Positions 5,329 to 60,695 of a stretch of DNA of 64,000 nucleotides are shown in pieces. The translations under genes were made by a program, and so were the position numbers. Position 1 is the first letter of the stretch. The number at the start of each line of letters is the position of its first letter. This DNA comes from Deuterostichococcus epilithicus (lineage: Eukaryota; Chlorophyta; Trebouxiophyceae; Prasiolales; Stichococcaceae): contig JAVTLE010000023.1 of assembly GCA_033439295.1 (NCBI GenBank), positions 2,330,530-2,394,529 of the forward strand, given 5' to 3'. The notes beneath the pieces were generated by a model. That model did no database searches, was not told the origin of the DNA, and saw nothing but the letters and a program-made list of their open reading frames with translations.

Positions 5329-8300
5329 ATGGCGAGGGGGGCGCTAGCGCGGCTCCTTGTGACCGTGCAACGGCACGAGCTGTCAGCGAATTCATGGGCT
5401 GCTGCACAGAAGCTCCCAGGTAAGGCTGCAGCCGACGTGCTGCACCATGCTGATGCACCCCCGCCGCAGCCAGCCTGTCACCACCAAATCTTCCATTCGC
5501 AGGCATCGTCAGCGTTGCACGCTTCTCCTCCGCTGCCACTCGAACGGAAAAGGATACCTTCGGGCCGTTGGAGGTGCCCGCCGACAAGTGCGGCTTTCCT
5601 GGCAATGCCCACCCTGTCAATGCGGCTGACGTATGAATGAAAGCTTTGACATGATGAGCCGTGTTGCGTCCAGGCCGTCACTCGCATCCAGACCGTCACT
5701 CGCATCCAGACCGTCAGCCGATCATTCGCATCTGCAGGTACTGGGGCGCGCAGACGCAGCGGTCGCTGCAGAACTTCAAGATCGGCGGCGCACGGGAACG
5801 CATGCCGGAGCCCGTCGTCAAGGCTTTCGGCGTGCAGAAGCGCGCTGCTGCCAAGGTGCAGCGCTTGTGTGCACGGGCATACAGCGGGAGCAGCTGCTGC
5901 CAGAGCGCGAAATCTGTGAAGTTGATGGCGCTGTTCGCATGTGGACGCCTGTTGCCACAATCGAGGAGTGCTGCTAGTGATACATCCGTACACAGGTCAC
6001 ACCTGCTCTTCCTCGGCTGCGGAACAGGTTAACGCGGAGGCGGGGGTGCTTGACCCAAAGGTGGGCAAGGCGATCATGCAGGCGGCGTCGGAGGTCGCCG
6101 ACGGGCAGCTGCTGGACCACTTTCCGCTCGTCATCTGGCAGACCGGCAGCGGGACGCAGTCCAACATGAATGCCAACGAGGTAGGGCGGCTCGGCGTGCA
6201 CTCAGGTGCCGCGGATGGACCGTGTTCACACAGTGATGGCGTCACATGCGCGATGCGGTGTGCCACGATATGACAAAGCCATGCGCAGGGCATTGTTTAT
6301 TCATCCCTGCTGTCGACAGGTAATTGCCAACCGCGCAATCGAGATTCTGGGCGGCAAGTTGGGCGACAAGTCGGTAGTACACCCCAACGACCACGTGAAC
6401 AAGGGCCAGTCTTCCAACGACACCTTCCCGACGGTGCGTGGCTGCCCGATCTCACTTCTCTTGCAAGGTGAAACACATTCTGCAGTGCCCAAGCGCACCA
6501 CGGCACCGCCACAAGGCCGCATCCAATGCGGCACCCTTCAAAGCCTCTGCTTCTTGCCTGGACCTTTGCTGCAGATGTCTTTGACTTGGGCCAACGCCTG
6601 AGAATGTCCCACCTGTGCAGGTCATGCACATTGCCGCGGTGCAGGAGATCCACCAGCTGCTGCTGCCCGGCCTGAAGCACTTGCACGTGCGCTCTTCTTT
6701 GCACCGGCAAAAATGACCGGACTCGCTCACTCACTTGCCAGCCAGTCGGATCGTGCCACCGAGGCGACACATCTGCAAAAGTGCATCACGCTTCCGATGC
6801 GACGCTGCTGCACACGTTGCTTGCCGCAAGACACTGGTGGCAATCGTGGCCGTCAGTGCATGTGTTCTATGCATGTCCTTCCTGGCCGGCAGGCGGCGCT
6901 GGAGGCGAAACAGGAGGAGTTCAAGGACATCATCAAGATTGGGCGCACACATACCATGGATGCCACGCCGCTCACGCTCGGCCAGGAGTTCAGCGGCTAC
7001 GCCACCCAGGTGGGTGTTTCTGCACGATGGTTGGCGCTCTGCCATCCATGTTTCTGGTACTGCCTGCGGCGCCTTGTTGGTTCTGGTCGGGGTTGGGGTC
7101 GGGCCTTGACGACGTCGGCCGTGTCGCCCTTGTGTCAAGCAGCACAGTCAGGCTGAGTATCGTCAGAATTTTTATGAGCAAACCTCGAGCACACTTGGCA
7201 TTGCTCCGACTCGCACGCATTGATGCAAGGTCGTGGAGCCTGAAGACTGCACACAGCAGGAAGGGCCTCGGGATTGGCGTGTGAGTCCACCCTGCAGCGC
7301 AGTGCGGAGCAGGATCCGATCTTATCCCTCACATGCGCGTCGCGGCAGGTGGCGTACAGCATTGAGCGCGTCGAGGCGACGCTGCCGCGGCTGTACGCGC
7401 TGGCGCAGGGCGGCACCGCCGTCGGCACTGGGCTCAATGCCAGGAAGGGCTTTGCCGAGGCGTTTGCCCAGGCTGTCGCCGACGACACAGGTGCTTGCTT
7501 CGGCGATGTCTGGGATCCGACATGGCCTGTGGCCTCTGCGAAATCAGTATGTGGCACACTGCGGAGAGTGATGCACTGCAGCGCTGCACATGCCTGCGCG
7601 GCAGCAGTGTGTGCATCCCTGGCCCAGCGCCGCCGGACTGCATACTGTATCAAGCACCCAGCATGCGGCTGCAGTCGCCAGCCGGCACATCCTCTGTCAT
7701 GCAGGGCATCCCTTCGTGACGGCGCCCAACAAGTTCGAGGCGCTTGCGGCGCATGACGCCATCGTGGAGGCCAGCGGCGCGCTCAACTGCACCGCGGTCT
7801 CCCTCATGAAGGTCGCCAACGACATCCGGCTGCTGGGTGAGCCGGATGTCCTCCCTCCCGGCTGCCGCGTCGCTGTGCTCATCCTCAGCCGTGAGGTCCC
7901 CAAGAAGCGCCGCGGAGCAAGGGTGTTTCAAGCTTCTGCATGCCTGAGCTTGAGGCGGCCATAACAACCCCTGCGCGAGCAGCTCTCTGGCGTTTGGTGT
8001 TTGGCATGTTTGCGGCAACGAAGCAGATGGCAGCAGGCGGACATTGGTGCTGCGTGGCGGTGCTGAGACTGGCAGTTGAGCAGCCCTGGTGACGCTGCCT
8101 TGCCTGCAGGCTCAGGACCGCGGTGCGGGCTGGGGGAGCTGCTGCTGCCCGCCAACGAGCCTGGCAGCAGCATCATGCCTGGCAAGGTGGGTCCACTTTC
8201 AGGGTTTCAGGGTTTCATCGTATTGTAAAGATCGTCCACAACCTTTGTGCATGTGCAGGCTGCTTGGTGCATGTGCCCTGCTGTGACCATGCACAAAATT

Positions 8301-13175: not shown

Positions 13176-15251
13176 TTGTACACACTGCTACGCGCCGCAG
13201 ACGCTGGAACGGCCCATGAGCTGTGGCGGTGTGGCAGTGCAGGCGACACGCTGCTTGTCCTCCATGCGCAGGGCTTCCTGGTGCTGGTCCTCCTCTGCGG
13301 CATGGGCGTCCTTCTGTACACGCTGCGCAGCATGACGGCGGAGCGCGTGTGCCAGCCCTCCTGGGCGGGCCACCCGCCGGGCTCGCACCTGAACATAGCG
13401 ATCGTTACCATGACGGACACGCAGCTGCAAAACCGCAAACAGCACAACAAAGAAAAGGTGACGCCTGGCGATCGTCACCATGACGGACACGCAGCTGCAA
13501 AACCGCAAACAGCACAACAAAGAAAAGGTGGCGCCTGGCGGCGTACAATGTACGGCGGCAACCTGAATGGACATGCATCTAGATGCGTACCTGGTGGGAG
13601 CTGCGAGTTTATTCAGACTGAGCTGAAGTCCGCCGTCCTCGTGAAATGCAGGCGAACAAATGGCGCGGCAGGAACTTTGAGGGGGTGCTGAGCCTGACGC
13701 ACGATAACAAGGTGCACTACGCGGAGATGCACGGCTACTCCTACGAGGATGCCAGCTGGGTTGTCTCAGGTGGCCACCGTCTGACTCCAATGTTCTCCGC
13801 AGCTGCTTCTCACCCAAAAACAGTCCAATACTGGTCGCCACTTGTTGAAGTGCGGCATTCTGCCCTCACTCTGTGGCGCCGTATTGCAGATGTTGAATTG
13901 CCAGGGCAGCGCCCATGCTTTATCAAGAGATCCTGCAGGCAGTTGCGGGCTGGGCAGGCCACTGCCATTAGGGGAATAAGAGAACGCAGCAGGGTATCCC
14001 GATGCCAAGTCAGAGTCCTGACTGCAGACCTCTACCGAATGCAGACGAGCGGCCGGCCTCGTGGAGCAAGATCCTGGCGGTCAAGCACTACTTGAAGGAT
14101 CGGGACTGGGTCATGTGGCTGGACGCGGACACCATTGTGACCAACCCGGACATCCGGCTGGAGTCGCTGCTGCCGCGCAGCAGCAATGGCCCGGACTTTG
14201 TGATCACCGTGGACGGCGGCGGCTACAATGCGGGCATCTGGCTCATGCGGCGCTCCGAGTGGTCCATGGCCTTTCTGGACCGCTGGTGGTCCATGAAGCA
14301 GTACATACGGGTGTGGCGCTGTGCACTTGGGTGATGACGAGTTCAGTGACTCTCATTGCATGCTTGAAAGGCGGGAACTCCCGTTGCTGCTCAGCCGAGG
14401 TTAGGCCCGCCTTGCAGGGAGAGGCTGCTGCGCCTTGACGGCACTGCAAATGCATGCAGACAGCAACCCGCCCGCTCTGCAATCAATATGGACTGCGTCT
14501 GACTGCAGCCACCGGGGGACACAAAGAGCGGGGACAACGATGCACTCAAGGCCCTGCTGGACGAGGAGCGAGCCAAGGGCCGCCATGTTGGCATTGCGCC
14601 GCAGGTGCGTATGAAGCTTCTTCCATTGATGACTTATAACACCTGCCACAACAATCGAGTGCACAGCTGTTGAGCTCCTGATGCAATAGCCGAGAGCACC
14701 CGACTGGACGACATGGGCCTGTGCGGCGGGCCGTGTAAAAAAGCTGACGCTGGTCACCTGGCAGCACAGTGCTCCTTCAACTCGTACGTCTGGCGGAGCC
14801 GTGTGCGAGACTGGTGGCGCCTGGTGTACATGCCCAACACCATCCTGCTGGGCCTCTACCGCCCAGGTGTCTGTGTGGAAGTACGATCTGTCCAATATGC
14901 TGCACGTTTCGCGCTGTGACGCATAAAGAACCTCTGCGCGACCGTTAGCAAGCCTCAGTTTTGCAGTTTGTCCTGACCCCACAGGCGACTTCATACTACA
15001 TCTGGCGGGCATTGACGACAAGCGGGTGCGGCTCCAGCCCGACCTTGCACCATGCGTCTGTCCTCCGGACATGGCTGGAAAGGCCCTTCGCACCCTTCCA
15101 CGATCAATGCCGAAGAGTGCACTCCTCCCTGCGACAGGTGTACCTCGAGGCGGCGCTGGAGGAGGCGGAGAAGCAGTATGAGCAGGAAACAGAGGCAAGT
15201 CTCAGCAGCGGCGATAAACAGGTCCCAGGTGAGCTGTACCCCTACATGTAG
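13176..15251 (+). CDS. GT34 family glycosyltransferase (GMA12/MNN10 or xylosyltransferase type)
   Basis: Type II Golgi membrane transferase that would move galactose or xylose from a nucleotide sugar onto a glycan. Exons: 13176-13457 (5' end uncertain, no in-frame ATG before the membrane segment), 13652-13769, 14045-14310, 14509-14604, 14770-14866, 14985-15025, 15138-15251; about 338 codons, all in frame. An N-terminal hydrophobic anchor ([18 protein letters not shown]) precedes LNIAIVTMTD. The catalytic DXD appears as WLDADTIVTNP, followed by DGGGYNAGIWLMR, the PQ-FNSY motif split over an intron, and GDFILHLAGIDDKR. These are GT34 hallmarks. The C-terminus is a short charged helix. A 70-bp tandem duplication covers the end of exon 1 and its donor site; only the first copy's donor keeps the frame. 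The acceptor substrate cannot be read from the sequence. Confidence 0.85.
13398..13537 (+). repeat. 70-bp tandem duplication across a splice donor
   Basis: Copy 1 (13398-13467) and copy 2 (13468-13537) differ at only about two bases. Each contains the last codons of GT34 exon 1 followed by the donor AAG|GTG. Copy 2 lies in the intron if the first donor is used. Confidence 0.9.
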
Positions 15252-21893: not shown

Positions 21894-23199
21894 GCTTGAG
21901 CACTTCTGTGCATCGGCGTCGCGCTGCTGCTGGCTGTCAAAAGCATCGACGGCAAGTTTGGCGACCCGTTCAGGTCTACCGCCACCTCCATCACCAACCT
22001 ACGCCAGTTCGGCATGACAGTAATTGCCAAGTAAGTGCCTGCTGTTTTGGAATGGTACCTCTGAAGCTTTCCCCAAATCGGCTGTCGGCACCTCTCTGCA
22101 GCAATCTGCCGGCAGGCTTTGCGCACGCACAGCAGGCAGGCTGTACCAGCCTTGGTGGCATTTCCTCTTGAAGTCAGCCTTGCAAGGGTGCAGACGCCCA
22201 TGTTCGCAGTTCTTACTGGCGGCACTGGGACGTCTCTGTGCCAAAGCCCGACCTCAACAACTCGGCGGGCTCACAGGTATGTGCCGAACCATGGCGAACC
22301 AAGCAAGCACGTGATGTGCGGGCCTGCTTCCTGGAATAGGCTGGCTGTCATATTTGTTCCTCGTCTCATTGATATGCAGAAAAATCCGAGGGCCGAACGC
22401 TGCCAAGAGCTTTGCCTTCCCTCCGGTTTTGCATGACAACACCCCCGGCATGCTCGGCGCGGGCGCCATCTCCGGCAGCAGGGAGTCCGGCAGCAGCGCT
22501 GGCAGCCCGTCGGCCGCGCAAGTGCGACAGGTGAATCCAAATTCGAGGCTGACTTAGTGCTGATGCATCGGCACAGGGCAGGCTTACTCTGAGTTCAGCA
22601 TGGGTCACGCAGATCCCGGCTGAGCGCTGATGCATCTGTGCATGGAAGACATCCTTTGGCGTGCCAATCAATCCCGGCGCTAGGCCTTTGCGCCGCAGGT
22701 TCGCTCCGTCGGCGGACTTTTCGGTCGCATGGGACCTGAGACCAGGTACATCCATTGAATGAGCACGATGTGTATCCTTGAAACCTTTGGTTGAGTGAGA
22801 AGAGTCTGTTCTCGATGGTGGACGCTGCACAAGTGTCGGTTGCTTCTTTTTCAGGATTGCGGCAGCAGCAGCAGCAGCGGCGGCAGTGGCGGCGGCAGCA
22901 GCGGCGGCGGCGGCAGCAGCATTGGGGCCGGCAGCAGCGGTGCTGACCGGCCGTTCAGTATAAAGGTGCGAAAAGTGGATTCAGAATCAGGCGACTTGAG
23001 TGGCTGCTGGTGCATGGGCACGGGTCTCAAAGCAGTCTCGAAAGCCTGGATTCCTTCCGGGGTCACATGCAACATCGTGCTGAGTGCATGCATGCACGGC
23101 CTCTTCTGGCGTCTTGCACCAAATCGTCACCTTAGACGCAGGCCATCAACACCATCGACAGTTGCGCCGCCACCTAATAGCATCATACCGGCTGAGTAA
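21894..23199 (+). CDS. Unidentified gene with a hydrophobic segment and a Gly/Ser-rich repeat
   Basis: I do not recognise this gene. Exon-like pieces: about 21900-22030, reading LLCIGVALLLAVKSIDGKFG then DPFRSTATSITNLRQFGMTV and ending at a strong GTAAGT donor; about 22210-22276, reading SYWRHWDVSVPKPDLNNSAG, which joins in frame; about 22380-22530, with AAKSFAFPPVLHDNTPGMLG; about 22700-22745, with VRSVGGLFGRMGPET; a GGC/AGC repeat exon from about 22855; and a short last exon near 23142. The first piece has one probable membrane helix. Phases between the second and third pieces do not agree, so at least one boundary is wrong. The stop could be near 22969, 23178 or 23199. It could also be a decayed gene. 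Confidence 0.35.
22859..22930 (+). repeat. GGC/AGC trinucleotide repeat tract
   Basis: An impure run of GGC, AGC and CAG triplets of about 70 bases. It reads as poly-Ser/Gly in one frame and poly-Ala in another, which makes the reading frame of the surrounding gene ambiguous. Confidence 0.8.
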
Positions 23200-23997: not shown

Positions 23998-26900
23998 TCA
24001 CAGGTTGCTCGGCACGGGGCAGGGCTTGGCCTGCCAGATGTCCTGCGCATGCACATGTTGTGGAAGTCACAGCTGGAGGGCAGCCTTGCAGAGGCAATTC
24101 ATTCTCGGGAAACCTCCACCGAGCATGGAGCTGTGCCGACTGCTGTGCAGGACTTTCGGGTGCGCAGGTCAGTCCAACCAGCAGCCGTCGCAGGACCCCA
24201 GCAGCCGCTGACGCGCAGTCCATGCTGCCGTCAGCCACAAACCCTACACGGAGCGGAAGGAAGCCTGGCAAGCGCCCCAGTCCGATGAAGGCGTTCCGTG
24301 CCGCCGCACCTCTGCGTACTGGCGGATGGTGCGGTCGGAGGAGAAGTAGCCGCTGCCGGCGGTGGACATGATGCTCATGCGCGTCCACCGTGCCTGGTCC
24401 CTGTACGCTTCGTCCACCTTTTCCTGCAGTTGGCGGGGGCAGAGGTAAGGCAGCCTGCCCCAGCACCTCCTCGCAGGAGGCGGGCCACCGTGGGCCTCGG
24501 TGTCTCTCCTGCAGGGGGGGCGGGCACACGCGATCCGCCAAGCAAACACACAGACTCTGGAGCTACAACCCGCCGAGCTCGTCCATACCTGCTGACAGCC
24601 TGACACCTCCTGTCGCTCTCAAACCAGTGAAGTCATGGCGCTGCGGCTGCGTCGTCATGTTGCAGGTCGACATGGCGCTGCGGCTGCGTCGTCATGTTGC
24701 AGGTCGACATGCATTTGGTCGTCACGCAGAGGCCCGCAGCTAGCGCCACACACCTCAGCAGGCCAGCGTGTCCAGCTCTGGCCTCGCCTCTGTAACCTCT
24801 ACCTGAACCTCCCGACCCAACCAGCCCCACAAGACCCGCACCTGGGCCAGCAGGTAGGCGGGGAAGTCGTTGGCGACGAGGTAGTAGTCGCGCGACCCCG
24901 ACAGCGTCTGCAGCAGCTCCTCAAAGTAGCCCTCCCAGCCAAAGACGCCCTTCCGGATCATGTTGACTGCGTGGTCGAAGCGCGGGTCCACCTGCGGGGC
25001 AAACCGGCGTTGATACAGGGGTTTCTGGTTCTTGTACTGTTGCTTCGCGAACCAGGTTAGCGTGCATTGGCAAAGTGGAGCGGGAGGTCAGACACCGCAA
25101 TGCGCAATGCGTCTTGACACCCCGAAGGGGCGCCTGCGTCGTCAACGCCACAGGTTCCGTGGACCGTGTGCAGACCCCCAGATACGAGCCGAGCAGCGAA
25201 ACGGCTGGCAAGGGTCTTTGTGAAGGTCAAGTTTGACACGATGTAAGCAGGACCGGCCAGGGGCACATGGCATGGCGGCGCCCACCTCGAGGCTGGGGCG
25301 GTCCTCGCGCAGCTGGGGCACATCCTCTGTTTCGGCACCAAAGATGAACATGTTCTCGAAGCCGATCTCCTCCCCGATCTCGATGTTCGCGCCGTCCAGT
25401 GTGCCGATGATCAGGCTGCGCCGTAACAAGACGCAAAATTCCACCACGTACATCTCTGACATCTGAGCAACTTCCGACAGCTCATGTCAGACATGGGCAT
25501 GGACTCGGCGCCTCAGGCTGTCGTGCTGCTGTGTGCCTGCAAGCAGCTCCAGAATGGCTGGACAAACAACTAGGTATTGCAGGTGGCGCAGGCGGCAGCG
25601 CCGAGACGCAGGTTGCGATCTCACACCTGCCGTTCATGGTGAACTTCATGTTGCTGGTGCCGGAGGCCTCTGTGCCAGCGGTGCTGATGTGCTGCGACAG
25701 CTCCGTCCCCGGGATGATGATCTCCGCCAGCGACACGTTGTAGTCCGGCAAAAACACCACCTTCAGCAGGTCGCCCACCTGCGCCGCATTGAGAGGGTCG
25801 ATCTCACTGTTCTAAAGCACTGAGTTTCAGCTCTACAGCTTTGAGTACACAGAGCCACTCGGCAAGTGTGGTCGTCAAGAAGACGTGAAGAGCAGCAGCA
25901 GGGTGGGGCCATACAGGTGCCTCCCAGCTTGCAGAGAGCTGGCCTGCGACACCAAGCACGACAGGCTAGGCCAGGGCGGGTGGCAATGCCGTGCAGCTCG
26001 GGAGTCGCGCTCTCACGTCGGGATCGCGGTTGATGGTGTCGCCGACCGCGGAGACAAGTTTGATGATGCGCTTTGCCATCTCATAGCCGGGCGCCGCCTT
26101 GCCGCCGATGACCACCACCCTCGGCACCATCTGTGTCAGCACAGGCACACAGGTCACGAGCAAGAGATGCGGAGACACAAGCCGTTCGAAAATGCAGAGG
26201 AAATGCTGTCACGGCAGGGCGTCACAGCGGCAGCACATGGTCCGGCAGCAATGTCACATGCCGCTGGACCGAGCAGCAGGGGAATCTGCAGAGCGCCAGC
26301 ATGGTTCAGCACGAGGCGGGCACCTCGCTGCGCTGCGAGGGGTCGGTCGTCTTGATGGTGTGGTAGCGGTGGATGACGCCCAGCACGTTCAGGAACTGCC
26401 GCTTGTACTCGTGGATGCGCTTCACCTGCGCCATGCAGGATGAGGGGCGAGGTTTGCAGCGCATGCATCAAGCCGGCTGACACAGCCCCACGCTCAGCTT
26501 TCCAGCGCATGCTTCAAGCGGCCCGACACAGCCCCGAACTCGGCTGAGCCGCATCCTCTGGGCCAGCACGCCAAGACACGCAAGAAGAGGGGCGCCTGCA
26601 TGCTCGACAAGGAATGCACTTCGGCCCGCAAGCGGGTGCCATTTACGGCTGCCCCTCAGGCGTGTCGGTTCGCGGCCGCCCCAACTTGCAGGGACACACA
26701 CAAGGCCCCCACCTGCACGTCCAGCATGGAGTTGGCGGGCAGCCGCACGCCGGTGACGGCGGAGATCTTGTCCATGGCGGCAGCCTTGGCACGCGCCTTC
26801 ATCCCCCGCCACTGCTCCTGGAACGCCGGGTCCTCCGCTTTCTCCTTCAGGCTCTGAGCATCAAGCAGTGGACACACCGTTCGTCAGGCCCTTGAATGAA

Positions 26901-29900
26901 AGGACATGCGGGTGCATGTGGTTGAACCGACAGCTGTTCTGACGACTGTGCCCCCTGACACTGCTTCTGAGGTGCCAAACCCCGACCCCTGAGGCTGCGC
27001 ATGGCATGCAGGGAGTTACATCGCCTGGTTTGGCAGCACGACAGGCGGAATGTAATGCATGTATTCCAGTCCGAAGCCAGCTGGTTGCTAAATGTGCCCA
27101 AATTGCCGCCGCAGGCACGTCGTCACTTTCAGATACTTTTCAGGCGCTGCACCTGCAGCATGTTGAGGTCGGTGACCCAGTCGTTGGAGCCCAGCGTCTG
27201 CGTCAGCAGCGCCCGCATTGGCGGGTTGCACATGGCCAGCCACCGGCGCGGCGTCACGCCATTGGTCTTGTTTTGGAACTTCTCCGGCCACAGGTCGTAG
27301 AACTCCCGGAAGATGGTGTGCTTGATGATGTCCGAGTGGATGGCCGCCACGCCGTTGATGGTGTGCGACGCCACCACCGCTAGGTACGCCATCCGCACAA
27401 ACCTGTGCGGCGGAGGCCATGAGGCGGGGTCACGAAGAGTGTGAACCGAACCCCGAGTGTCTGGGAGGCAGGCGACCGAGCTGCACGAAGTGAGGCAGTG
27501 GCTCGGAACTGGTCCTGCTGCTGTGCCGTGGCACAGGCTGGCAGTGCGACCAACACAAGGCAGCCTTGAGCCTTGCTTAATCGACTGGTGGCCAAAGTCC
27601 ACATTCCCTGCAGGCGATGATGGCCCCTCGAAGGTGATCCACGCGTACGCAAATCTACATGCAAGACGCACTGCTTGCAATGGAGACCCTCCTCGATGAC
27701 GGACATCCGGGGGCCTTGCCGACAGAGGGTCGGTTCCATTCTTCAGCCGTCACACTAGCTGTTCGCAGCACAGTGCCACACAGCGCCTGACACTACTACT
27801 CACTTCTCGCCGGAGTAGTCCTCCTCGATGATGGACATGCGGGAGATGCGCTCCCAGTCGTCGCCAAAGCGGCCGCGCATCTGCTGCAGGAAGCGCCAGT
27901 TGATGTCGTAGATGATCTGCATGTGCCGCGGCAGCAGCTTCTCCATGAGGCTGACCGGCCACCGCTCCAGCGCCTCCGGCAGCACCGTGTGGTTTGTGAA
28001 AGCAAATACCTGTGGCGTGAGGGGGGATATTGTTTGGCAGCAAGCTTGTAGAGTCAGCAACAGCGAACCCTGGGGCCTGATTCACACACAGTGCAGGCAA
28101 AGGGAGCCCGGCTCGGAATGCTGCTTGGGAGTCGGCTTTGGATGCTGCTTGGGCGCCTCGTCCTGAGCCCCTGCGGCGTCATGAGCGAACCTTGCGCCTA
28201 TGCCTGTAGCCGCACCAGGCACGAATGCTGCTGCCAGCCGGGCGGTCAGCCGTTCTCGGCCCGCGCCTCATGTTCAACACCTCTGGAGCGCCTGGCCGCC
28301 TCTATCCTCGTCCGCACAAAAGTGTGTACAGAAAAATCTCTGTGGCATCAGCCGCCATGTGCAGGCTAGTGCCCGTGCATCGCCTCAGCGCCATGATCAA
28401 GGTCGCCCCGCACCTTCTGGGTGACGTCCCAGGCCTGCGTCCAGCCCAGGTTGTTCTCGTCCATGAGCAGGCGCATGAGCTCCGCGACGCCGATGGTGGG
28501 GTGCGTGTCGTTCAGCTGGAAGGCCACCTTCTCCGGAAACTCCTCGAAGTCGGTGTGGAACTCCTTGTACCGTCGCACTACGTCCTGCGATGCCGAGACG
28601 AAGTAGCCGTAAGGGGGTTGCGGGTTGAGACGTCTGGCCGTGCGGGTGGGAGCCTGGCGGGAGCGACCTGGAGAGCTTGCATGCAGGGCCCCAAGCTGCT
28701 GTGCATGTCGATGCATCCGTGCAGCCAACAGCAGGCAGATGTACACAGCCGCAACCGTAGTGCTCGACGAGTTTACACTCTGATGTGCGCTCCTGCCACT
28801 GCCGCTACAGTAAACAGTCTGGCGGCGCGCCTGGATGGTGGCGGACACGAAGAAGTGCTGCTGTTTGAGGCGCAGCTCCTTGCCCTCGTAGGTGCGGTCG
28901 TCCGGGTACAGCACGCTGCTCAGCGTCTCTGCCCGCTGCTTTGACAGGATGGCCTGCGCAACGTAGTGTTGCAAGTTGACTGCTGCTGCCTGCTTGAGAG
29001 CCATTTCCGCAGCGACCGTGCTCTCATTGATACGAGGACACGACCAAAACTCAACGAGGCGACTGGCACGACAGGCAGGGCCGTGACGTTCCAGGCCCAT
29101 GACTTGAGGCGCATGACATGCCCATGGCGGCGACAGGCCCTGCCCCACTCGGCCCCATGATTGAGGCACTGTTGCTGCGGGCCTCCTGCCTCGGTCTCGC
29201 TTGCAGATGTTTACGCTTACAGATGTTTCAAGTCTTGGGGCAGTTCGGTTCCCGAACTCGCCTGCACATAGTCGCCGGTGTTGAAGGCCTCCAGGTCGAA
29301 CTCGGTGTCGGGCTTGGCGGCCCACAGCCGGAGGTTGATGGTGTTGTTGGTGTTGAACCCGGGGATGGGGTTGTCATACGCCACCGCTGTCACCTGCGGC
29401 CACAGTCTCGGCCCCCGTGTCGCCAGGTTGTCGGGTAGGTTCACAGCCGGCAGCAGTGCTGACACAGCAGGGGTGCGATGGCTCCTACGAGTTGCATTCG
29501 AGCCATGCTGCGAGGTGCACACACACACTGCATGATGTACAGGTGTGCTCATGCCCTCACTGTCTCGCTGGGGTTCCACCGGAACTTCTGGCGGCCGTCC
29601 TCCTCAGCGACCGACACATGGCCGTAGAACTGGATCGGGTACGCCACGTTCAGGCGCTCAATCTCCCACGGGTTGCCAAAGTTCAGCCAGTAGTCCGGCT
29701 GCTCATGCTGAAACCCGTCCACGATGCTCTGCGAATTGCACGGCAGGTGAGTATCCTTGAGTGCTGTCTGCTGCTGTGCCAGTGGCCGCGGAGGCCTCTA
29801 GTAGATGTTGGACCACAGACACATTGCTACTGCCACCCCTATGGCATGCAGTGTGCCATGGGCCCGCAGCTGCAGCTGCGGGCATATTAGCAGGACTCAC

Positions 29901-32018
29901 CGAATGCCACTGCAAGCATCACTGCTGCCGAGACCCTCACCTGACGGAACATGCCGTACTGGTAGCGGATGCCGTAGCCCCAGGCAGGCATGTTGAGCGT
30001 GGCCATCGAGTCCATGAAGCAGGCCGCCAGCCGCCCCAGGCCGCCGTTGCCCAGCGCCTGCACGTGACAGGCGCACCAGGCCGCTCGAGAAGGCTGATTG
30101 AGGGTCCAATCTGGTGGCGCAACCCGCCGCTGCCCCGCGCCGCCAGCTGTGCCTGGCTTGCGCCCTGCTGCCTGGTGAAATTCCTGGCCCTCTGTGCCAG
30201 GACCTCCCTGCGGCGACTCCAGAGACTGCAGACGCCTGTGCACACACAACTGTAGACCGTTACCACAACTTCTAAGAGTGAACTCACCGCGTCCCGCTCC
30301 TGCTCTACCAGGCGCTCCAGGCTGTAGCCCATCTCCGCGAGTGCCTCGCCGTAGGCGCCCGCCACGTCCAGGTTGAACAGTGCGTTTAGCAGCGAGCGGC
30401 CCATCAGGAACTCCATGGACATGTAGTACACCCGCTTCACGTCCTGCTCCCTGCGCAGCAGTGGATGGCAGTGTGAGGTGGCGGGGTGGTGGGAGCACAG
30501 CAAACGAGGACCTGCTCAGGGTTGGCGTCCTCAGTGATGATTGACCTCATCAGCGCACACAGTGCCAAGCCAGTGCTTTGGACTTGATCTGCTTCCCGCA
30601 CGATGGAATGGGCTGCCGTCAGCCCGATTTTAGCGCTGTCACGAGGCTTCTCCTCGCTTGACTAACGACAGGCCGGTTGCGGGACGGGGCCTCACTTGAA
30701 GTAGGCCTGAGTGTCGTTCCAGGACTCGATGAGGCGGTCACGCAGCGAGTAGGCGGTTGCCATGTACGCCTCCTGGTCGTCAAACTTGTAGCGGCTGCGC
30801 GCCATTGTGTACTCCACATGGTTCACGATGCTCTCCTCTATGCTCAGGATGTCGTTTTTGATGTACGTGTCTGCGAATTGGGTGCAGGAGCGGTTTCCTT
30901 AGAAGAGGTCCTTAGGGCACTTTTGATCGATTTCAGAGCGTGACGGCCTGTGTAAAGTCTGGCAGTTTCAAGGAGCAACGTGCACCCACCTCTACCGACT
31001 GACGCGGTGCTGAACGATGGCAGGGTCTCAGTGGCTTACATGATGTGCGCCGCTTCCACCGCAATCAGGCATCATTAGGGGAGGGCACAGCGAGGCGGAG
31101 CGCTCACCCATGAGGCTGTAGAGGTGCTCCTTCTTCTCGTCCCGCTCCGCCAAGCCGATGCCCGCGGTCATGAGCAGGTTCGGCCGCTTGGAGTTCTTTA
31201 CGCCCGGCTTTGCCTTCAGCACAGCCTGCGGTTGCGGCACACCGGTGCTTGGCGGGGGTTTTGAGCGGTGTACGCGTCCTCCAAACACTGCCTGCTGCGT
31301 CCGGAACCACGTGTGGTTCCTGGACCAGTTGCAGCTGTCCTGTGTTGCAGGTCTGCGAAGTCCCATGTGTCCTCCTCATGCTGACCGGGCCTCCTGCATT
31401 TACAGCGGCCAGCTGTCCCAAGCGCCGGGTGGCTGGTTGCGAACTGCGGCCCACCTCCAAAGAGCGCTTGACATTGATGGCGTCGCCCTCCGACACCTTG
31501 GCGCCTGATGCGTCCTGGACATAGAACGTGTCCAGGATGCGGCCGTTCTGCGCATCCACCGACGCCTTCACCACCTGCGGCAGCAAGCGCCGCGGCTTCA
31601 ATCCCCGCAGCCAGTGTGGATGCATCGTGTGCGCCTTGAGCACAGCGTCCAAGCTGGAATCGCTGCATGAGCCCACTGGCACCTGTCATCAGTCATCTGT
31701 GAGATGCTCGACTCGATCAGTGCTTCCTAAATCCACTAAAAATGAAGTGAAACACTCGGCACTCACCTCCAGGCCGAGGCCCTTGAAGGTGCCAGTGAGG
31801 GCGGTCAGCAGCCCCGGCCGACTGTCTGCCTCCAGCGTCAGCACCGTGCTGTGCGCGTCTGCGTTGTTGTCCACGCGCACGGACACGCTGCCCGCGGGCG
31901 AGCCGCGACTGACCCGCTGTGGCGGCTCTGCAATCGCACGCACGGCGAAGCACGACCTGTATGCAAGCGCGCGGCACTTGATGGCAGGGTTATGCAGAGC
32001 TGTGGCGGTCCGCGGGCA
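23998..32018 (-). CDS. PHO: Alpha-glucan (starch/glycogen) phosphorylase with N-terminal ACT domain
   Basis: PLP enzyme releasing glucose 1-phosphate from starch. Exons, minus strand: 32018-31767 (5' partial, no in-frame ATG), 31574-31455, 31225-31108, 30870-30696, 30450-30288, 30057-29941, 29728-29561, 29393-29262, 28953-28831, 28584-28414, 28009-27804, 27402-27153, 26853-26713, 26425-26324, 26130-26017, 25778-25627, 25415-25286, 24991-24842, 24423-24310, 24042-23998. The joined product exceeds 955 residues. Landmarks: [76 protein letters not shown] and the PLP-lysine block [10 protein letters not shown]. It lacks the ~78-residue plant plastid insertion before VRMAYLAVV. The first two exons encode an ACT fold ([18 protein letters not shown], then [20 protein letters not shown]). 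The residues before it ([13 protein letters not shown]) resemble a transit-peptide cleavage region. Two introns start with GC. Confidence 0.94.
24634..24707 (+). repeat. 37-bp perfect tandem duplication in a phosphorylase intron
   Basis: Two adjacent identical 37-base units start at 24634 and 24671. They lie inside the intron 24424-24841 and leave the coding sequence untouched. Confidence 0.85.
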
Positions 32019-32795
32019 TCATCATGAGCTTCCAGCATGCCGATTACTGTTGCCTGGAAGGTCAAATGCCCGAGTGCAACGGAGGGCACGAAATGCCAGC
32101 AATGCAAATGAGCCTTCGACCTTCCTGAGTGAGATCGCTGCCGCCAGGACGGTCAACATTTTGCTGCGACCATCGCAATAATTTCACAATTCGATGAGGT
32201 TGTCTCACCCTCGTGCTGGTCGACTGCAAGCCGTTGAAGACCGCCAAACGGGTTCGCCGGTCAGCGAGCGGCGGCCTGAGCTATGTCTGTGCTTTTGTCC
32301 CGAGGAGCAGGGCACGCTGCAGCTCCGTGCATGTGCGCTCGGAAGCACGGTCGCATGGCCTGAGGCCACCGGCGCCTGCATCGCTACTGCTGGAGGTGAA
32401 AATATCTCTGTAGATACTATAATCCACAGCCAACTACCACCCCAGTTGATTTTCAGCACCACAACATCGCGATCGTGATCGAGTCGCTTGCGAGCGGCGA
32501 ATCATGCGCGCACCTGCACTGCACAATGGCTTTGACTGCTAGGCTTCATAGCACAGAGATTAGCGCTAATCGCACATACAAACTTCTCCAGCACCCGACA
32601 ACTTCACAGTGTGCCTGCTCGAAACCTGGTCAGCATACGAGATATAGGACAGCCGCTCCGATAGCCTGCTGTCCGTGACTCGAAGGCTAGGACCTGACTG
32701 CGTGAACACTTCTGTGCCGGTGATTGTTTCAATCACAAGGCCAACTGGGTGTCGTCTCGGCGAGTGCAGCTACATAGCAGCACAAAGCTTTCATC
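32019..32795. other. Divergent promoter region, phosphorylase and nucleoporin
   Basis: About 780 bases between divergent genes. No confident coding sequence is visible, but the missing first exon of the phosphorylase (with its ATG) should lie in the right-hand strand of this region. A locally A+T-rich stretch sits at about 32395-32470. Confidence 0.4.
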
Positions 32796-49235: not shown

Positions 49236-52200
49236 TCAATCGAACGCGGCGCACAGGCGCATTCGGCCGCCGTGCACCCTCTCCACCTCACGCTGCACCC
49301 GGCTCAGAGCCGCAGTGCAAAGAGGTTGCAGCTGCGCGTGCCGGCGCCCTAGCCGCTCGGTGCAGCGCAGCATGCTTTGCAGTCCCTCCAGGTCTGCCTC
49401 CACAAAGCTGGCTGCCCACAGCTCCAGCAGGCCGCAGAGCGGCCCATGCTCTGCGCACAGGACTTCGCCACCCGGCTCGCAGCCGCAGGCGCCAGCACGA
49501 GAGCTTGCCACTGCTTGTGCCAGGCCACCGTCCGCTGCAACCGTCGCATGTTCCAAGCGGGCGTCCAGGCCAGGCAAGCCCTCCGCCGCCCAGCCGACCA
49601 GCAGCTCGCAGCCGTCCGCCGCATTGCAGGCTTGCAGAAACTCCAGGATCGGCGGTGGCACGGCGGCGCGAACGCCTGGGCCCCACTCGATGCCGCGCCC
49701 CGCCACCGCAGCCGCTGCGATACCGTCTACAGCAGAGGCACCCGCCTCCGGCACCATCCACGGCATGACGGACCAGGCATCATCTGAGCAGTCGTCCTCG
49801 TCGGTGGCAAAGCCCTCGTGCTCCATGCGCCGTCCGCCAAGGTTCACAAGCTGGCCCAGCACCTGCGATTTGTGAAAGCATGACCCACGCTGTGACAACA
49901 TGCGATGCACAAGACAGCCAAGCAGCTCGCTTCTCGTGCCCAGCATGCATGCCACACCCACCACAGCCACTGTCACAGCCTCAGAGCTCAAGCCAACTGA
50001 GTTTGACCAATTGCCTCGCTGCAAATCCAACACTCACAGCTGCGGGCATGAAGCATCCTCATTTGCAGCGAACACAAGATCGCACCTCAGCCTGCAATTC
50101 CTCCGGCAGCTCTGCCATCACCTCCTCATCCACATGCGCAAGCGCCGGCGCTGGCCTGCATGAGTCAACAGGCAGCAACGGAGAGTCGGTTTCCTCGCCA
50201 TACTGTCTGCAGATCGTGCGCCATTGCACGCGAGGAATTGAGAAGAGTTGGGACACAGCATCTGCCAGTGTGGCGGCATGTGGGAGCAGGGGCTGAAGTA
50301 GGGCGATGGTTGGCGCGCCTGGCGGCAAACGGGTCAAGCGCAGGGGCGGCTGCCGGCTTGGCGCGCGGCTGCCGCGGGCGCAGCTCGGCATGGATCTTGG
50401 GCTGCCGCGCTGCGGGCTTGTTCCGGTTCATGCCTGCAATGACACGCAAGGCAGGACTTGTGTTGCTGCACCATCCGCGGTAGCCGACACAGTCTCCTGT
50501 GCGCCTGAATGCGGGGAGGATGCTCTGGCCGCCATCGCACGACTGCCAGACCATTTGTGCGCTGCTGACGCCCCGAGGACCATCAACACTGGAGCTGGCT
50601 TTAACATTCATCATGCACTCGCACAGCGCACCGTAGGCCAGCTCCAGCTCGCGGCGCGTGACCAGCGGCAGGCTGTCCAGCACCGACTGGTCCAGCTGCG
50701 ACATCGGCGGCAGTGCTACGATTAGGCTTCCGGCGCCGCCGCCCCGCGGCCCCGCGGCCCGCGCTCGCTGCAGCGGCGGCGNCTTGGNGGNGCTCTGCNG
50801 TGTGGGCGCCAGCGGCAGCGTTTCTGGTGCCGCCTCGGACACACCGGGCGGCNCCGTGGCGGCCACCGCCCGCTGCAGGAAGCTCGGCAGCGCGTCCGCC
50901 TCCCCGCCGCCGCCGGGGGCTGCCCGCGCGGCAGACCGGCCTCCGGCACGCGGCGGGCCTGCGACGTCAAACGTAANGCCCGCTGCGTGGCCGCCCAGCA
51001 GGGCGGCGGCGTCCGCTGCAGGGGCTGCCGTCGCCGCCGCTGCGGGCCCAGCCACCGCTTCTGCTTCCGCTGCTGCTCCTGCTGCTGCTGCTGTCAGGGC
51101 ATCTGTCTCATTGGCGTCCACCGCAAACTGACGGTCCATCGGCCCGCTGATGGGGTGGCGCGCCTGCTTGGACGGACTGGCGCCCTGCGCCGCTGGCTGC
51201 AGGTGCGCAGGGCCAGCGTCCGCCCAGGGCCGCTCCGGCGGCCCTCGTTGCCTGTCAGCCTCTGCCGCATCTCCAGCAGCCCCGCCACCCTGTCGGAGAA
51301 CAAGGACCAGTGCCAGCGTCCACTTGAAAACGTTTCGACGGTTCGAGCCCGCGCGGCAGACCAGCTGCGTCGGCACAGTGTACTGCAGATCTGCTTACAC
51401 CCAGGCCGGATGGAGCCGTCACACACTTCAAGGCATCGCACCTTTGCCTTCTCGTCCTCGACCGCCTGCAGCATGGCCTGGGCCCAGGGGTGCGGCGCGG
51501 TTGGGTCGAACACTGAGGCCGGCGGCGCAATGCCTTTCGCCACAGCCGTGTTGGTGGGCCTGGCGGCGCCTGACGTCGGGTCGTTGCTCAGCTTCGTGAC
51601 CTGCCACGAACACGTGCACAGCGTATGTCATCCTGACAGGTCGGAAGCGGTCTCGGAAGGTGTTGCTGTGAGCACGCCCACGGTTTCATTAACTTTGATG
51701 AGGCCCTCCGTCCTAACCTCGTGTGTGTACAGTCAACAATGGCTCCGCACATCAGACTGCACTGTGTGGACAGAATGTCATCTGAAGCAGCACTTGACAG
51801 CCATGTGTGAGGCCTGCTTCCAGCCATGTCAAAGCAGCGCGCACCGTGATACCGATGCCGCGCATGTCGCCGGGCGGGATGCGCAGCGCGTGCAGGAGGG
51901 CCTGCGCCTCGGCGGCGATGTCGGCGGCGGAGTCGACGAAGCGACTCAGCGTCAGCGAGCGGCTCAGGTTGTCGCAGATGCCGTGGCCCATGAACTTGGA
52001 CGGCTCGGGGGCGCCCTCCTTGCGCCGCTTGACCTTCAGCGTCACAGAGCGCCCCTTGACGCCCGCCTCCGCCAGCCGCGACGCCACCTGTGTGTTGCAA
52101 TTTCGAATTTTGAATGCAAATCGAAGTTGGATTGCGGCGCAGCCGTCCTCACCTGACGATGCTGATTGGCGGCAACGGACGCCAGCAGCGGTCAGCAGGC

Positions 52201-55200
52201 CGGGCTGATTGCCAGCAGCCTCGCCAGGTGTGTCATGCAGACTCTCGATCCACAGCTCTGGCGGGCAGCGGGACAGTTCGGGACCGCACCTCGGTGGCCA
52301 GCTCGGTCAGAAAGACGTCCGCATCCTGCTGGTTCCTGAACCGGATGCCCCAATTCACCTCCGCGCCCAGCGACCTGCGCCGAGAATCCAGGGTGCGAGC
52401 CCTCAGCGAGGAAGGCTCACATCGAGCGACTGGGGAGCTTTCCACCAGCCACCGGGCTCCGAAACGAGCTTGCAGGCCCACCTGCAATGCGAGCGCTGCG
52501 GCTGCGAGGATGAGAGTGCGCTCGAGGATCATGACGCACCTGCGGGGTTTGGGCGGCTGCACGATGCGGGCGTCGCGACCGTGCGCCATGTCCCACAGGT
52601 TGGCGCCTGTCTTGTCCCCCAGCTCCCTCTGCAGCACAATATGCATCCATCCAGATGGGACTGCAGTCAACTCTTGTGACCAGAGTGGCGTAAGCGGGTC
52701 TGCTTCATGTCCCAGGGGCGAGCGCCAGCATGGTGTGGCCGAGCTACTTTGCAGGTTCCAGCCGCAAGGAGGCTGTTCAAGGTTGAAATGCTAAGCCTCG
52801 CGAATTGCGTTTCGAAAACAGCACCTGCTTCCTGAGGCTGTGAACATATAACAAGGAGTGGCGGCGCTTGAATATCAATGTTGATTCACAGCAAGCAGTA
52901 AGATGCTGCCAGACCTGTAGGCGCTCCTTGGTGGACATGCGCACGTCAGCTGCGCTCGCCAGGCCAAGCTCCGAGAGGCGTTGCTGCAGCGACCTGCATG
53001 GCGCATGTCAATCATGGCTGAATTGCAGCACTGCTGTGACATGAGGTGAACAGAGCGCTGTTGCTGCGCCCAGCTACGCTTTGTGCAGGTGCAGAATTGA
53101 ATTCAAGACAACAGCAAAAAAGCAGCCGCCAATAGCGACACAGCGACCTTTGAACACTGATTGACAAGCTGCAATTCATCTAGTGTTTACTGAAGTACCT
53201 TGCGTGCAAAAGACGGTCAGTGGAGACTTCTTTGAATCAGTCAGGGACGCACCAGCCGACGCCCGGCAGATCGGCGAGCGGCAGCGCCGCAATGGCCGCC
53301 TGTGCTTCGGCCGCCCTGATGCGGAAGGCGCCGTTCGGCTTTGCCTTCCTGGTGGCCAGGCGTGCGACCAGCATGTTGGGCCCGATGCCTGCACTGGCAG
53401 TGCAGCCGGTGGCCTTCTCCACCTGGAGGGCGAGTGACACTGAGAGTTATGTATGATATAGATGTGTGACGGCCAAAGGAGACCATGTTTCAGCTTGTCC
53501 ATATTCATGACGCAGTGTACATGCATGCGATGCACCAGCCGGTCAGTGTGCAGCAGCCTGACCTGTTCAGCGCCGAACTGTGCATAGCCCTCCAGAGCCA
53601 TAGCCAGCAGGCATCGAACTTGCATCGAGGGTCTCAGCGAAAACGCGCCTCGGCTCGGATGGCGCGGGCGATGGTGAGGGGGTCGCCGAGGCCGCTGACA
53701 TCAAGGTAGGCCTCGTCGCAGGAAATGGGCTGCACCGCCGCCGTGTGCCGCAGCAGGATCTTGTACACCGCCTCGGACGCCGCCTCATAGCGGTCAAACT
53801 GCACGAGATGTCCAACAAGGTTCATCAGGGCCGTCCCAGCCAGCACAAGTGATACAAGGTAAGCCTATGCTCAGGCGTGTGGCATCAGGCAGGCGGGCGA
53901 GCAGATCGCACATATACAGGCAGCTCTGCGCCCATTTCCTGCAAGCCAGGTGTGCACCAAAGTGCGTCGTCCAAGGGGTGAGGGAGCAAAGCGGCCGCGA
54001 TTCAGCAGGGACGGCAGCAAGCATCACCTCGTAAGGCAGCACCAGCAGGTGGGGGCAGCGCTGCTTGGCGCGCGACATGGTCATGCCGGCGTGGATGTCG
54101 AAGGCGCGGGCCTCATAGTTGGCGCTGGACACCTCAGCGGTGCCCACCGCGGAGTTGGAGTGGCACACCGCCAGCGGTTTGCCGCGGAATAACGGGTGGC
54201 CCTGCGGGCAGTCAAGTGCGAAGGGTGACCAGGTTTCTCGGCACGTAATTCGCTTAGAGCTTCGCGGCTCCTGCTGCACCTGAGACACACCTCCCAACCT
54301 GGCAGCGGTTGGCACTGAGGTAGCAAGTGGTCGATGGTTCACCTGGGTGGCAATGGAGGCGAAGAAGCAGTCCTGCATCAGGAAATAGAGGTGCTGAGAA
54401 ACAGCAGATCCAATGGGTGAGCCATGTATCAAATGCAGGCGTCTGGGTTCTGCATCCACTGCACACCATGTCCAGGTGGATGATGGCGCGCTCAGCGACG
54501 CGCCGCTGCCCCTGCAGTGCCGCCGCCACGCTGGGGTGCGGCGCCACCGGCTGCGGTGCCGCCTCCGGCGGAGCAGCCATCAGCGCCTCGATGCGAGCCT
54601 ACATGCATGAGCAGAAGAGTTGCCCGTCGAGCTACCCAGTAATCCTTCAGGTACCTTAGCAAAGAAGGGGCCCAGGGTGGTGAAAACATGGCAGCCGAGG
54701 CTTGCCGAGTCCCCCTGGGCCTGGCTGTGTAAGTATGGCATAAGACTGTCAGACCATGCAAGGACGACAAGTTGATCACGCATACTAGACGAGCTCGACA
54801 GCCAAAGTCACCTTCCAGGTGCCGATGAAATGCAGGCGCGATGCCTTGAAAAAGGTATTCATGAACTCGGGGTCATCGCGGGAAGAGCGCGGCGCTCCCT
54901 TCAGCACGTCACACGCCGCCCGCTTCTGTGCCGCGACCTGCGCAGCACAACCCAAAGGTATTCACCCTTCTCTCGTCGTTGCTCTGTCAACTAGTCTGCT
55001 CCTGATCCACGAGCGCTGTCCAAGTGCATGCAGTGGCGACATGTTGTCTCGGCATGGCGGCCCCCAGCAAACGACACCAGAATCTGTGCACCTGTTGCGC
55101 CAGTGCCATTTCGTCTGCCACAGGCCGCTGCTGCTGCTGCTGTTGCGGCGGTGGCTGTGCGCCTGCTGTAGACGGCTGCTGTTGCGGCGGCAGTGCTTGA

Positions 55201-57567: not shown

Positions 57568-60500
57568 ATGCAGACCGACGGCACAGCTGTTGCTCAAAGC
57601 AGTGGGGGACCGAAGAAGTGCATCATCATCGGCGCTGGCTTTGCTGGGCTCGCTGCGGCTAGATGGCTGGGCACTCATGGAGGAGGGCGCTGGCAGGCGA
57701 CCATCCTGGAAGGGAGCCAACGTGTCGGCGGTCGAGCGCACACGGTCGAGGTGAGTGTGCCAGCTGAAGTGGTGCCATCGGTTGGCGCTAGGGCAAAGCA
57801 TGCCCAGGCATGCCCGCAAGGCTGCCAAATTCGGCAAATAGTGCACGGGCGTCACGCCTCTTCTGTTCGAAGAAGGGTGTTTCCTGGGAGCATAGTGCTG
57901 TCTGGCCGATACCAGTGGCGTGCCAAATATGTGCGCCCTGCGCGATGAATTGCCGCGCCATATATGGTTCTCATGTGCATCGCAATGCGCCTACAGCTGC
58001 CGGGCTGTGGACGCGTCGAGCTGGGGGCCACTTGGCTGCACGGCCTGAAGGGCAACCCGCTGTATACGTACGCGGTCGAGGCGGGCATCATGTCGCCAAA
58101 GGCCAAGCAGAAGGGTGCGCGCTGCCGCACAGCATGGTAATGCATGCTGGCGCCGGCATCCCACTGACCGTTGTGCATTCCGTTCACCTTGTCGTTTCGG
58201 ACCTACAGCATGGTACAGCGCATGCGAATGTATGATTGGCGACCGGTGCATCAGGAATTCCATGTTGCCCACCACTCACAGAGGGGGAGTGGGGCAACGT
58301 GCAATGGGCACGAGAAGGTGAGGCCGAGGCGCTCGCAGCGGAGCTGGCTGAGACAGCCAAGACGGCAGCGGCGAGCTACTCCATGGCCGTTGAGGAGAGC
58401 CTGCACATAGAGGAGCCCTTTCTGACGGTCGGCGCGCACCTGAGGCGCAGCTGGCCGCAGGTGCGGGACGCAGTCTGAACCTTTCCGCGCTTTTGGCCTT
58501 GCGGCAGGGTCTCCGCATGCTGCTGCCATGTTCGGTCCTCAACACGACCGAGCATCTTCAAGTTTATGGCAAAAGAGGGCGAGCACCTCCTTGACAGAGC
58601 CTGTGCACTGTGCAGGCGCACGGCAAATTTGAGTCGGAGCGGCAGCAGCTGGCGGCGGACGCTTGGGCGTGGCGGGAAAAGCTGCAGCGGTGCGACTGGG
58701 CTGCCGCTTCTCTGTCGGTCCTGCTGCTCCAGGATTGAATGTTGGTGACGTCACCAACCTGGAAATGGTAGGAACAGGTTAGGAATCGTTGACTGATGTG
58801 GAGCTGCACAGGAGCATGGACGGGTGCCGCACCACCAGCGACATGTTGGCCGAGGGTCTCGCCGTCTACGACGAGCTGGACGGTCTCAATGTGCCGGTGA
58901 GTAAGCCGTGTGGAGAGCCGATAGCATGCATTGTAGAAAACCTGTCGCTTCTCCTCCGTCAGCGCCAGAGGCTGCTGACAAAATGGTGCTAATGATATAC
59001 TCTATCTCGTGGGCGGCAGCAGCTGCCAGTTGCAATCACATCGACTGGAAACTCTGGCCTCGAGACATGTCACTCAGGGTACTGCTGCTTGGTATCATCA
59101 ATGACGCTGCCCACTGATGCGGTTCTGATGTGACATCGTTCACTCAGATGGAAACTGTGCCACGCAGGTGCCGGGCGGTTTCCAGGTGAGCAGCCGCTTG
59201 TTGGCTCTGCGTTCACATTATGGACGTCGGACTCTGCTGTCAGCATGCGCCATTGGAAGTACCCCTGACGTACTGTTGTCACTCTGGACTTGCTCCTCCC
59301 TGCATGAGTTGGCACCTGAAACGACTGCCTGCGCAGAGCCTGGCAAAGAGCCTGTCCAAGGGGCTTGACATCCGCTTTGGCAGCATCGTGCAAAGCATTG
59401 AGTGGGGCAGCGAGGCAGGCGCCCGCGTGACCTGCGAGAATGGGGATGTGTTTGAGGCGGACGCGGTCATCGTCACAGTGTCGCTGGGGGTGCTGAAGGT
59501 GGGAATCCGAGCTGCAGCAGAGCACAATGCGTGTTTTCACAATGCAAGCGCCACCATCATGCCTGATCGTGGTACATGCTCAGGGTATTCGTGATCGCAA
59601 CGACAAGGTGTGACCCTGAACAGACACCCCGCAGGCGTCGCACGAGCGCATCTTCAGTCCGCCGCTGCCACCGGAAAAGGCGGCGGCCATTGCGAGGATG
59701 CAGATCGGCGTCATCAACAAGGTCTTCCTGACCAGCCGGCCGGGGCAGCAGCGGGAGACACGCAAAGCAGGCGCCTTCAACCTGCTCTGGAGCGTGCCAG
59801 ATCACGAGGCGGCAGACTGCTGCCTCGGCGAGCAGCAGCCCAGTGACCCCAGGGGCACCGCTGGCGGCCGCAGCGGCGGCGACATCGACTGGCAGAAGGG
59901 CACATACGCTATCAGGTTCAGAGGCAGCGAGTTCGTGACCACGAAGGCGCTGGCACACGGCGGCGTCACGGGCAGCGGAGACGCTAAGGGCAGCCGGTAC
60001 GACGGCAGCGCCGGCCGCAGCGATGTTGACGCCGCCGTCGAGCCCTTCCAGCAGCCCGGCTCGGCGGATGCTGCCCACGGCGATGGCTCGCAGCTGCAGG
60101 CGGCCACGATGTGGGTTGCGGGGCCGGAGGCGCGGGCCATGGAGCATCGCAGCCAGGTGACAGTGATGGACGTGCTGCTGACACGTCCTGACATAATGCG
60201 GTCTGCATGCATCGAAGTGCCTGCACCTGGGTACGCTGACTCCTTCATGCGAGATCTTTGCAGGGTGGTTGTGCAGCATTTTTCATGGTGGTGCGATGGG
60301 CTACTCAATCGGCAATTGTCTGAGCGCAATGTCCGGAATGACGCTTGCAGGCCGAGCTGGAGGCGGAGGTGTCGGAGCTGCTGGATGCGTTTCCGCCGGT
60401 ACGGCAGCAGTTGCCGCGCGTCACCAGCGTGTTTCGCACCAACTGGGGTTCCAACCCGTTGACCATGGGCTCCTACTCGTACCCTGCCGCGGGCTCGGCG

Positions 60501-60695
60501 CTGACTGACATCAAGGTGCTGGCGCAGCCGGTGGGGGGCGACCGTCCCGTGCTGCTGTTTGCCGGCGAGGCCACGCACCCCTCGCACTACGGCACTGCGC
60601 ATGGGGCGTTCCTGACCGGCGAGCGTGAGGCGGACAGGTTGTTGAAATCCGCAACTCGCAGCCCAACACTGTCGTCGCTGACTCGTGCACATTGA
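57568..60695 (+). CDS. PAO: FAD-dependent polyamine oxidase (PAO/spermine oxidase family)
   Basis: Oxidises spermine, spermidine or acetylated polyamines, producing H2O2. Exons: 57568-57750, 57997-58114, 58282-58460, 58616-58717, 58783-58896, 59168-59185 (18-nt microexon), 59337-59498, 59635-60156, 60351-60695; 1743 nt, 580 residues. The N-terminus has the dinucleotide fold CIIIGAGFAGLAAARWL (GxGxxG at 22-27), then RVGGRAHTVE and GRVELGATWLHG. The middle has VPVPGGFQSLAKSLSKGLDI, and VTCENGDVFEADAVIVTVSL. The C-terminal FAD site is VLLFAGEATHPSHYGTAHGA. The family identity is firm; substrate is not determined. Residues around 350-430 contain a Gly/Asp/Ser-rich insertion absent from typical PAOs. 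The protein ends TRAH, so no peroxisomal SKL-type signal is seen. The exon 4 donor (58717) is the least certain boundary. Confidence 0.9.

Follow-up and report, generated by a model that had tools for sequence, protein, structure and literature searches.

Does the green alga Deuterostichococcus epilithicus possess a glucan phosphorylase that carries an ACT domain at its N-terminus and, if so, to which known enzyme does it correspond? This question is raised by a locus in a stretch of 64,000 nucleotides (the window, C19:2330530-2394529 in a genome of 46.8 Mb on 21 contigs), for which a first-pass annotation had noted ACT peptides followed by a phosphorylase. The gene is probably, at a rough probability of 0.9, an ortholog of the plastidial starch phosphorylase that is called PHOB/STA4 in Chlamydomonas and PHO3 in Lotus, a figure that refers to the identity of the gene and not to its mode of control. 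Such an ortholog would consist of a leader, a single ACT domain of GlnD/ACR-like type and, joined by a linker, the catalytic phosphorylase, in which the L78 insertion is lacking.

The predicted phosphorylase gene extends from 32381 to 23998 on the minus strand. Its 21 exons read through in matching phase to a protein of 1040 residues, with a single terminal stop and no internal stop, in agreement with the claim that ACT domain, linker and phosphorylase lie on one strand; the three peptides on which that claim was based are all present, in order and in phase. The protein predicted by this model begins with the leader and continues in phase with the ACT domain (residues ~82-164), some 60 residues of linker and, finally, the phosphorylase, which is complete. 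Exon 2 (31767..31956, minus strand, residues 58-121) encodes the end of the leader and the first part of the ACT domain, which begins at about 31886 according to the stretch matching the GlnD model and at 31850 according to the Pfam stretch. The second part is encoded by exon 3 (31455..31574, residues 122-161), while exon 4 (31108..31294, residues 162-223) contributes the last ACT residues, up to about 31286, and then mostly linker. The ACT exons described earlier as the first two of the gene are real, but in the model they come second and third (exons 2 and 3). Exons 5-21 (23998..30870, minus strand) encode the alpha-glucan phosphorylase (GT35), with the stop codon at 23998-24000. Exon 5 (30870-30696) holds the beginning of the enzyme and is followed by exons at 30450-30288, 30057-29941, 29728-29561, 29393-29262 (exons 6-9), 28953-28831, 28584-28414, 28009-27804, 27402-27153, 26853-26713 (exons 10-14), 26425-26324, 26130-26017, 25778-25627, 25415-25286 (exons 15-18), and 24991-24842, 24423-24310 and 24042-23998 (exons 19-21).

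The beginning of the gene had to be revised. The stretch described in the first-pass annotation reaches 32018; the frame from 32018 contains no ATG before an upstream stop, and the start codon must therefore be sought in an upstream exon. We infer such an exon at 32209..32381 on the minus strand (exon 1, residues 1-57), placed by its ATG frame and comprising the proposed start codon and a leader rich in Ser, Arg and Ala; if it is right, 32018-31957 is intron. The ATG frame and the donor (GG/gtgaga) allow in-phase joining to exon 2. Codon usage lends this exon no support, since its score of -41.9 is worse than that of four of the five other frames there. The leader is plausibly a candidate plastid transit peptide, and the protein would presumably be located in the plastid. 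Eighteen of the 20 introns are of the GT-AG type and two of the GC-AG type. The GC donors (gcgagt and gcgcgc) are found in the adjoining introns 9 and 10 (29261-28585); that of intron 10 (gcgcgc) is weak and represents the least sure junction of the model. A perfect tandem repeat occurs in intron 19 (24634-24711, 37-base unit, 2.1 copies, 100% match), and a GCA/GCG-rich simple repeat is situated at 22859-22938, about 1 kb downstream of the gene.

Are these exons indeed part of a single gene? When exons 5-21 alone are used to train a codon table, the proposed frame scores +5.6 in exon 2, +10.2 in exon 3 and +3.2 in exon 4; scores from -5.6 to -81.1 were obtained for the 15 other frames of these exons, and from -23.5 to -73.4 for the 12 same-strand frames of introns 1-4. 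The third-position GC content amounts to 0.86, 0.85 and 0.79 in exons 2, 3 and 4, respectively, and to 0.63 in exon 1. Exons 2-4 share the codon signature of the phosphorylase exons, while the introns and the other frames are without it. It could be imagined that the locus consists of two genes, one for a small ACT protein and one for a phosphorylase whose start is in exon 4 or further downstream. There are in-frame ATG codons in exon 4 (in LLM and SLM) ahead of the phosphorylase, and reading on from exon 3 into intron 3 meets no stop before 31104 (open frame 31685-31104), so that on paper an ACT-only product could arise from a retained intron. Intron 3 measures 160 bases, which is no multiple of three. 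Nevertheless, such a division is extremely unlikely and was rejected, because every junction from exon 2 to exon 5 is in phase, exon 4 bears the codon signature of coding sequence, and publications describe the same fusion in Chlamydomonas and in Lotus, where LjPHO3 was expressed from its full-length coding sequence (PMC5005325).

A domain search of the joined protein gives matches in both halves of the predicted fusion. PF00343 matches with 1051 bits over model positions 1-712 of 713 (protein residues 319-1030), and PF22754 with 25.5 bits, under its cut-off of 27.6; nothing beyond these phosphorylase and ACT-like matches was found in the Pfam scan of the whole protein. When segment 58-223 is taken by itself, PF22754 rises above the cut-off (29.4 bits, E 9.3e-7) and PF01842 matches below its own cut-off of 27 (19.3 bits, E 0.00097), while in the same segment scan the part of exon 4 past the ACT stretch matched no Pfam family. 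The GlnD model TIGR01693 matches the segment with an E of 5.2e-13, at its C-terminal ACT end only; the GlnD-model bits for the segment are far under the whole-protein cut-offs of those models, and the transferase and hydrolase parts of GlnD were found neither in this segment nor in the Pfam scan of the whole protein. GlnD itself occurs above cut-off in four of the seven bacterial genomes searched, and at E <=0.001 the segment matches two of these four proteins by phmmer and three by BLAST. In the best of them (L104), the match covers 72 residues of the last ACT domain, of which 33% are identical. Among PDB sequences, the ACT segment matched two polyketide synthases (E ~0.3), which were taken as chance matches, and no phosphorylase chain.

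Within the genome, scanned one exon at a time, 13 stretches match PF01842 at E up to 10, five of them over the cut-off, and three match PF22754, none over the cut-off; none of the stretches in either scan is on C19, and the ACT exons of the window are not listed in them. The nearest relative of the window's ACT domain in the genome is an exon at C5:1269818-1269961 (40% identity, E 0.007), which is GlnD-like too and could belong to an ACR-type gene. As judged from its profile and sequence matches, the predicted single ACT domain of the phosphorylase is of the GlnD/ACR kind, the type found in bacterial GlnD and in plant ACR11 and ACR12 (the ACR proteins being compared by papers only). Unlike GlnD, the window protein has no uridylyltransferase part, and its single ACT domain is attached to a phosphorylase.

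The best relative of the phosphorylase body (query residues 162-1040) in the PDB is the cytosolic plant phosphorylase PHO2 (4bqe, E 2e-292), and the plant chloroplastic L-1 isozyme (8r48) has this body in common with it as well. Where the query is aligned with 9lpw, only eight of its residues stand opposite a stretch of 94 residues in the chain (475-568). We take this to be the place of the L78/L80 insertion, which is present in 9lpw and thus absent in the window protein; the earlier remark that the plant central insertion is missing proves correct. Control by AMP was also looked into and set aside: in the alignment to brain glycogen phosphorylase, none of the six N-terminal AMP-site positions, which we take to be D42, N44, V45, R69, Q72 and Y75, is kept. 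R309 and R310, presumably further AMP-site positions, would fall in a VVRR stretch of the window protein that looks kept.

The contig encodes a second phosphorylase on its opposite strand (about C19:2287704-2293867). This gene precedes the start of the window by 37-43 kb and is separated by some 61 kb from the point at which the window gene ends. Its first 140 residues matched no Pfam family and gave no ACT match. Within its modelled N-terminal half, identity to the window protein amounts to 55% over 411 columns. The second enzyme contains a charged insertion rich in lysine and glutamate in its middle (L009 4110-4477, 59 residues in the partial model), presumably close to where L78 is inserted in plants. 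The presence of two starch phosphorylases, like the large number of introns and the high GC content of third positions, is compatible with a green alga. Elsewhere in the window, exons of a Y-family DNA polymerase are found on the minus strand (51839-54189, PF00817 and PF11799 matches), which we assume to be a gene of likely REV1 type. Plus-strand exons match Glyco_transf_34 (14044-14319), GTP_EFTU (63039-63269), Amino_oxidase (60348-60635) and Lyase_1 (6031-6198); seven of the ten window pieces scanned in that domain search had a match.

The fusion of an ACT domain to a phosphorylase is already published, so the question left by the first-pass annotation, whether it is known in algae, can be answered positively. 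Qin et al. 2016 (PMC5005325, in its available text) described an N-terminal ACT domain and the lack of L78 in Chlamydomonas PHOB/STA4 and Lotus PHO3, both of which are plastidic. An ACT-containing phosphorylase was also found in Jatropha and some dicots, and for the grouping with algal PHOB the same paper cites Wu et al. 2015. Chlamydomonas reinhardtii PHOB/STA4 is, like the window gene would be, a glucan phosphorylase with an N-terminal ACT domain and without L78, and here too a second isoform exists in the same genome (available text of PMC5005325 and PMC4919380). Lotus japonicus PHO3, compared by description only, combines a transit peptide with an ACT domain and a phosphorylase without L78 (PMC5005325), to which the window gene corresponds with a candidate for the first of these parts; PHO3 differs in coming from a land plant. 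The identification as an ortholog draws on the in-phase gene model, the phosphorylase and ACT-like matches, the match to the C-terminal ACT domain of GlnD, the likeness to the GlnD protein L104, the codon signature of exons 2-4, the absent central insertion and the same anatomy in PMC5005325. Points that count against it are the conjectural transit-peptide exon and the ACT profile scores under their cut-offs, for PF01842 as well as for PF22754 in the whole protein. Orthology to PHOB/PHO3, which are known here by description, is in this way inferred from shared architecture and not from a tree.

A bacterial origin of the fusion was considered and, as far as the best 80 bacterial relatives show, rejected. 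When the complete protein was searched for in GTDB genomes, 244 stretches were obtained, 230 of them confirmed relatives, and in all of the best 80 of these 230 the match begins at query residue 168 or later, after the ACT domain. The open frame extends at least 100 residues further upstream in three of these 80; a Pfam scan of these three extensions found no family. Some contigs end near the match (L068 after 13 bases). Since the search was seeded by six short peptide patterns, it does not prove that a bacterial fusion is absent. A scan of viral contigs with peptide patterns gave no match.

What, then, may be the role of the ACT domain? It would be a non-catalytic module, serving control or assembly. 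In the literature covered, with most subscription papers outside the search, no ligand, structure or shown function is reported for the ACT domain of a phosphorylase; the available portions of PMC12267944, PMC8950772 and PMC8509025 do not mention the domain. The suggestion that starch breakdown responds to amino acids was reasonable, and it is in print as a possibility, the authors of PMC5005325 being unable to exclude that PHOB is regulated by amino acids; for the enzyme of the window, such regulation would be a possibility. The word breakdown is too narrow, however, as the loss of PhoB in Chlamydomonas lowers starch, with a phenotype confined to nitrogen starvation (PMC4919380), which indicates that the role is not breakdown alone. 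Lowered starch after PhoB loss is likewise reported in PMC12267944, and in Chlorella sorokiniana, mutants that show little activity of starch phosphorylase contain less starch, and its structure is altered (PMC4706179, which in its available text names neither the isoform nor an ACT domain).

It is possible, if somewhat doubtful, that the domain is a ligand sensor through which glutamine or another amino acid alters phosphorylase activity, tying starch metabolism to nitrogen status. Of the profiles compared, the one matched best is GlnD at its C-terminal ACT end, which is considered the bacterial glutamine sensor (PMC3173338). Judged by eye, the Gly that follows RP in RPGLL coincides with a loop Gly described as nearly invariant in the same paper. 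The restriction of the Chlamydomonas PhoB phenotype to nitrogen starvation points in the same direction. On the other hand, overexpression of Lotus PHO3 lowers leaf starch, and does so at all three nitrate levels (0, 5 and 10 mM; PMC5005325), which gives no support to nitrogen control, and a study from 2025 found GS activity unaffected by ACR11, a plant GlnD-like ACT protein, which casts doubt on a GlnD-like action of ACR11 (PMC12702975). Furthermore, the family matched best in Pfam is the ACT-like domain that occurs in bHLH factors of plants, which we take to be a pairing module.

This closest Pfam family is in keeping with a second function, that of a ligand-free pairing or docking module which would keep the enzyme dimeric or bound in a complex, whether with branching enzyme or with another enzyme of starch metabolism. 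Recombinant Lotus PHO3 showed no activity once purified, whereas crude extract was on average 2.5-fold above basal, for which the authors suggested that additional factors were missing; a role of PHOB in a multienzyme complex has also been proposed (both in the available text of PMC5005325). The inactivity of the purified enzyme may have other causes, such as the GST fusion or folding. A pairing or docking role, though not quite an even bet, is slightly favoured here over a sensor role, and it is rather unlikely that the ACT domain has little effect.

Algae pile up starch once nitrogen is gone. One could speculate that a PHOB-type phosphorylase equipped with a GlnD-type sensor of glutamine or another amino acid reads the nitrogen status directly in the plastid and switches starch metabolism at that moment. 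This seems improbable at present; if true, it would account for the effect of PhoB loss being seen under nitrogen starvation only. In itself, the finding adds one more genome to the published PHOB/PHO3 family. What remains useful is a question that can be tested cheaply: does glutamine, or some other metabolite, bind to the GlnD-like ACT domain in phosphorylases of the PHOB type? If so, starch in algae would be linked directly to their nitrogen status.
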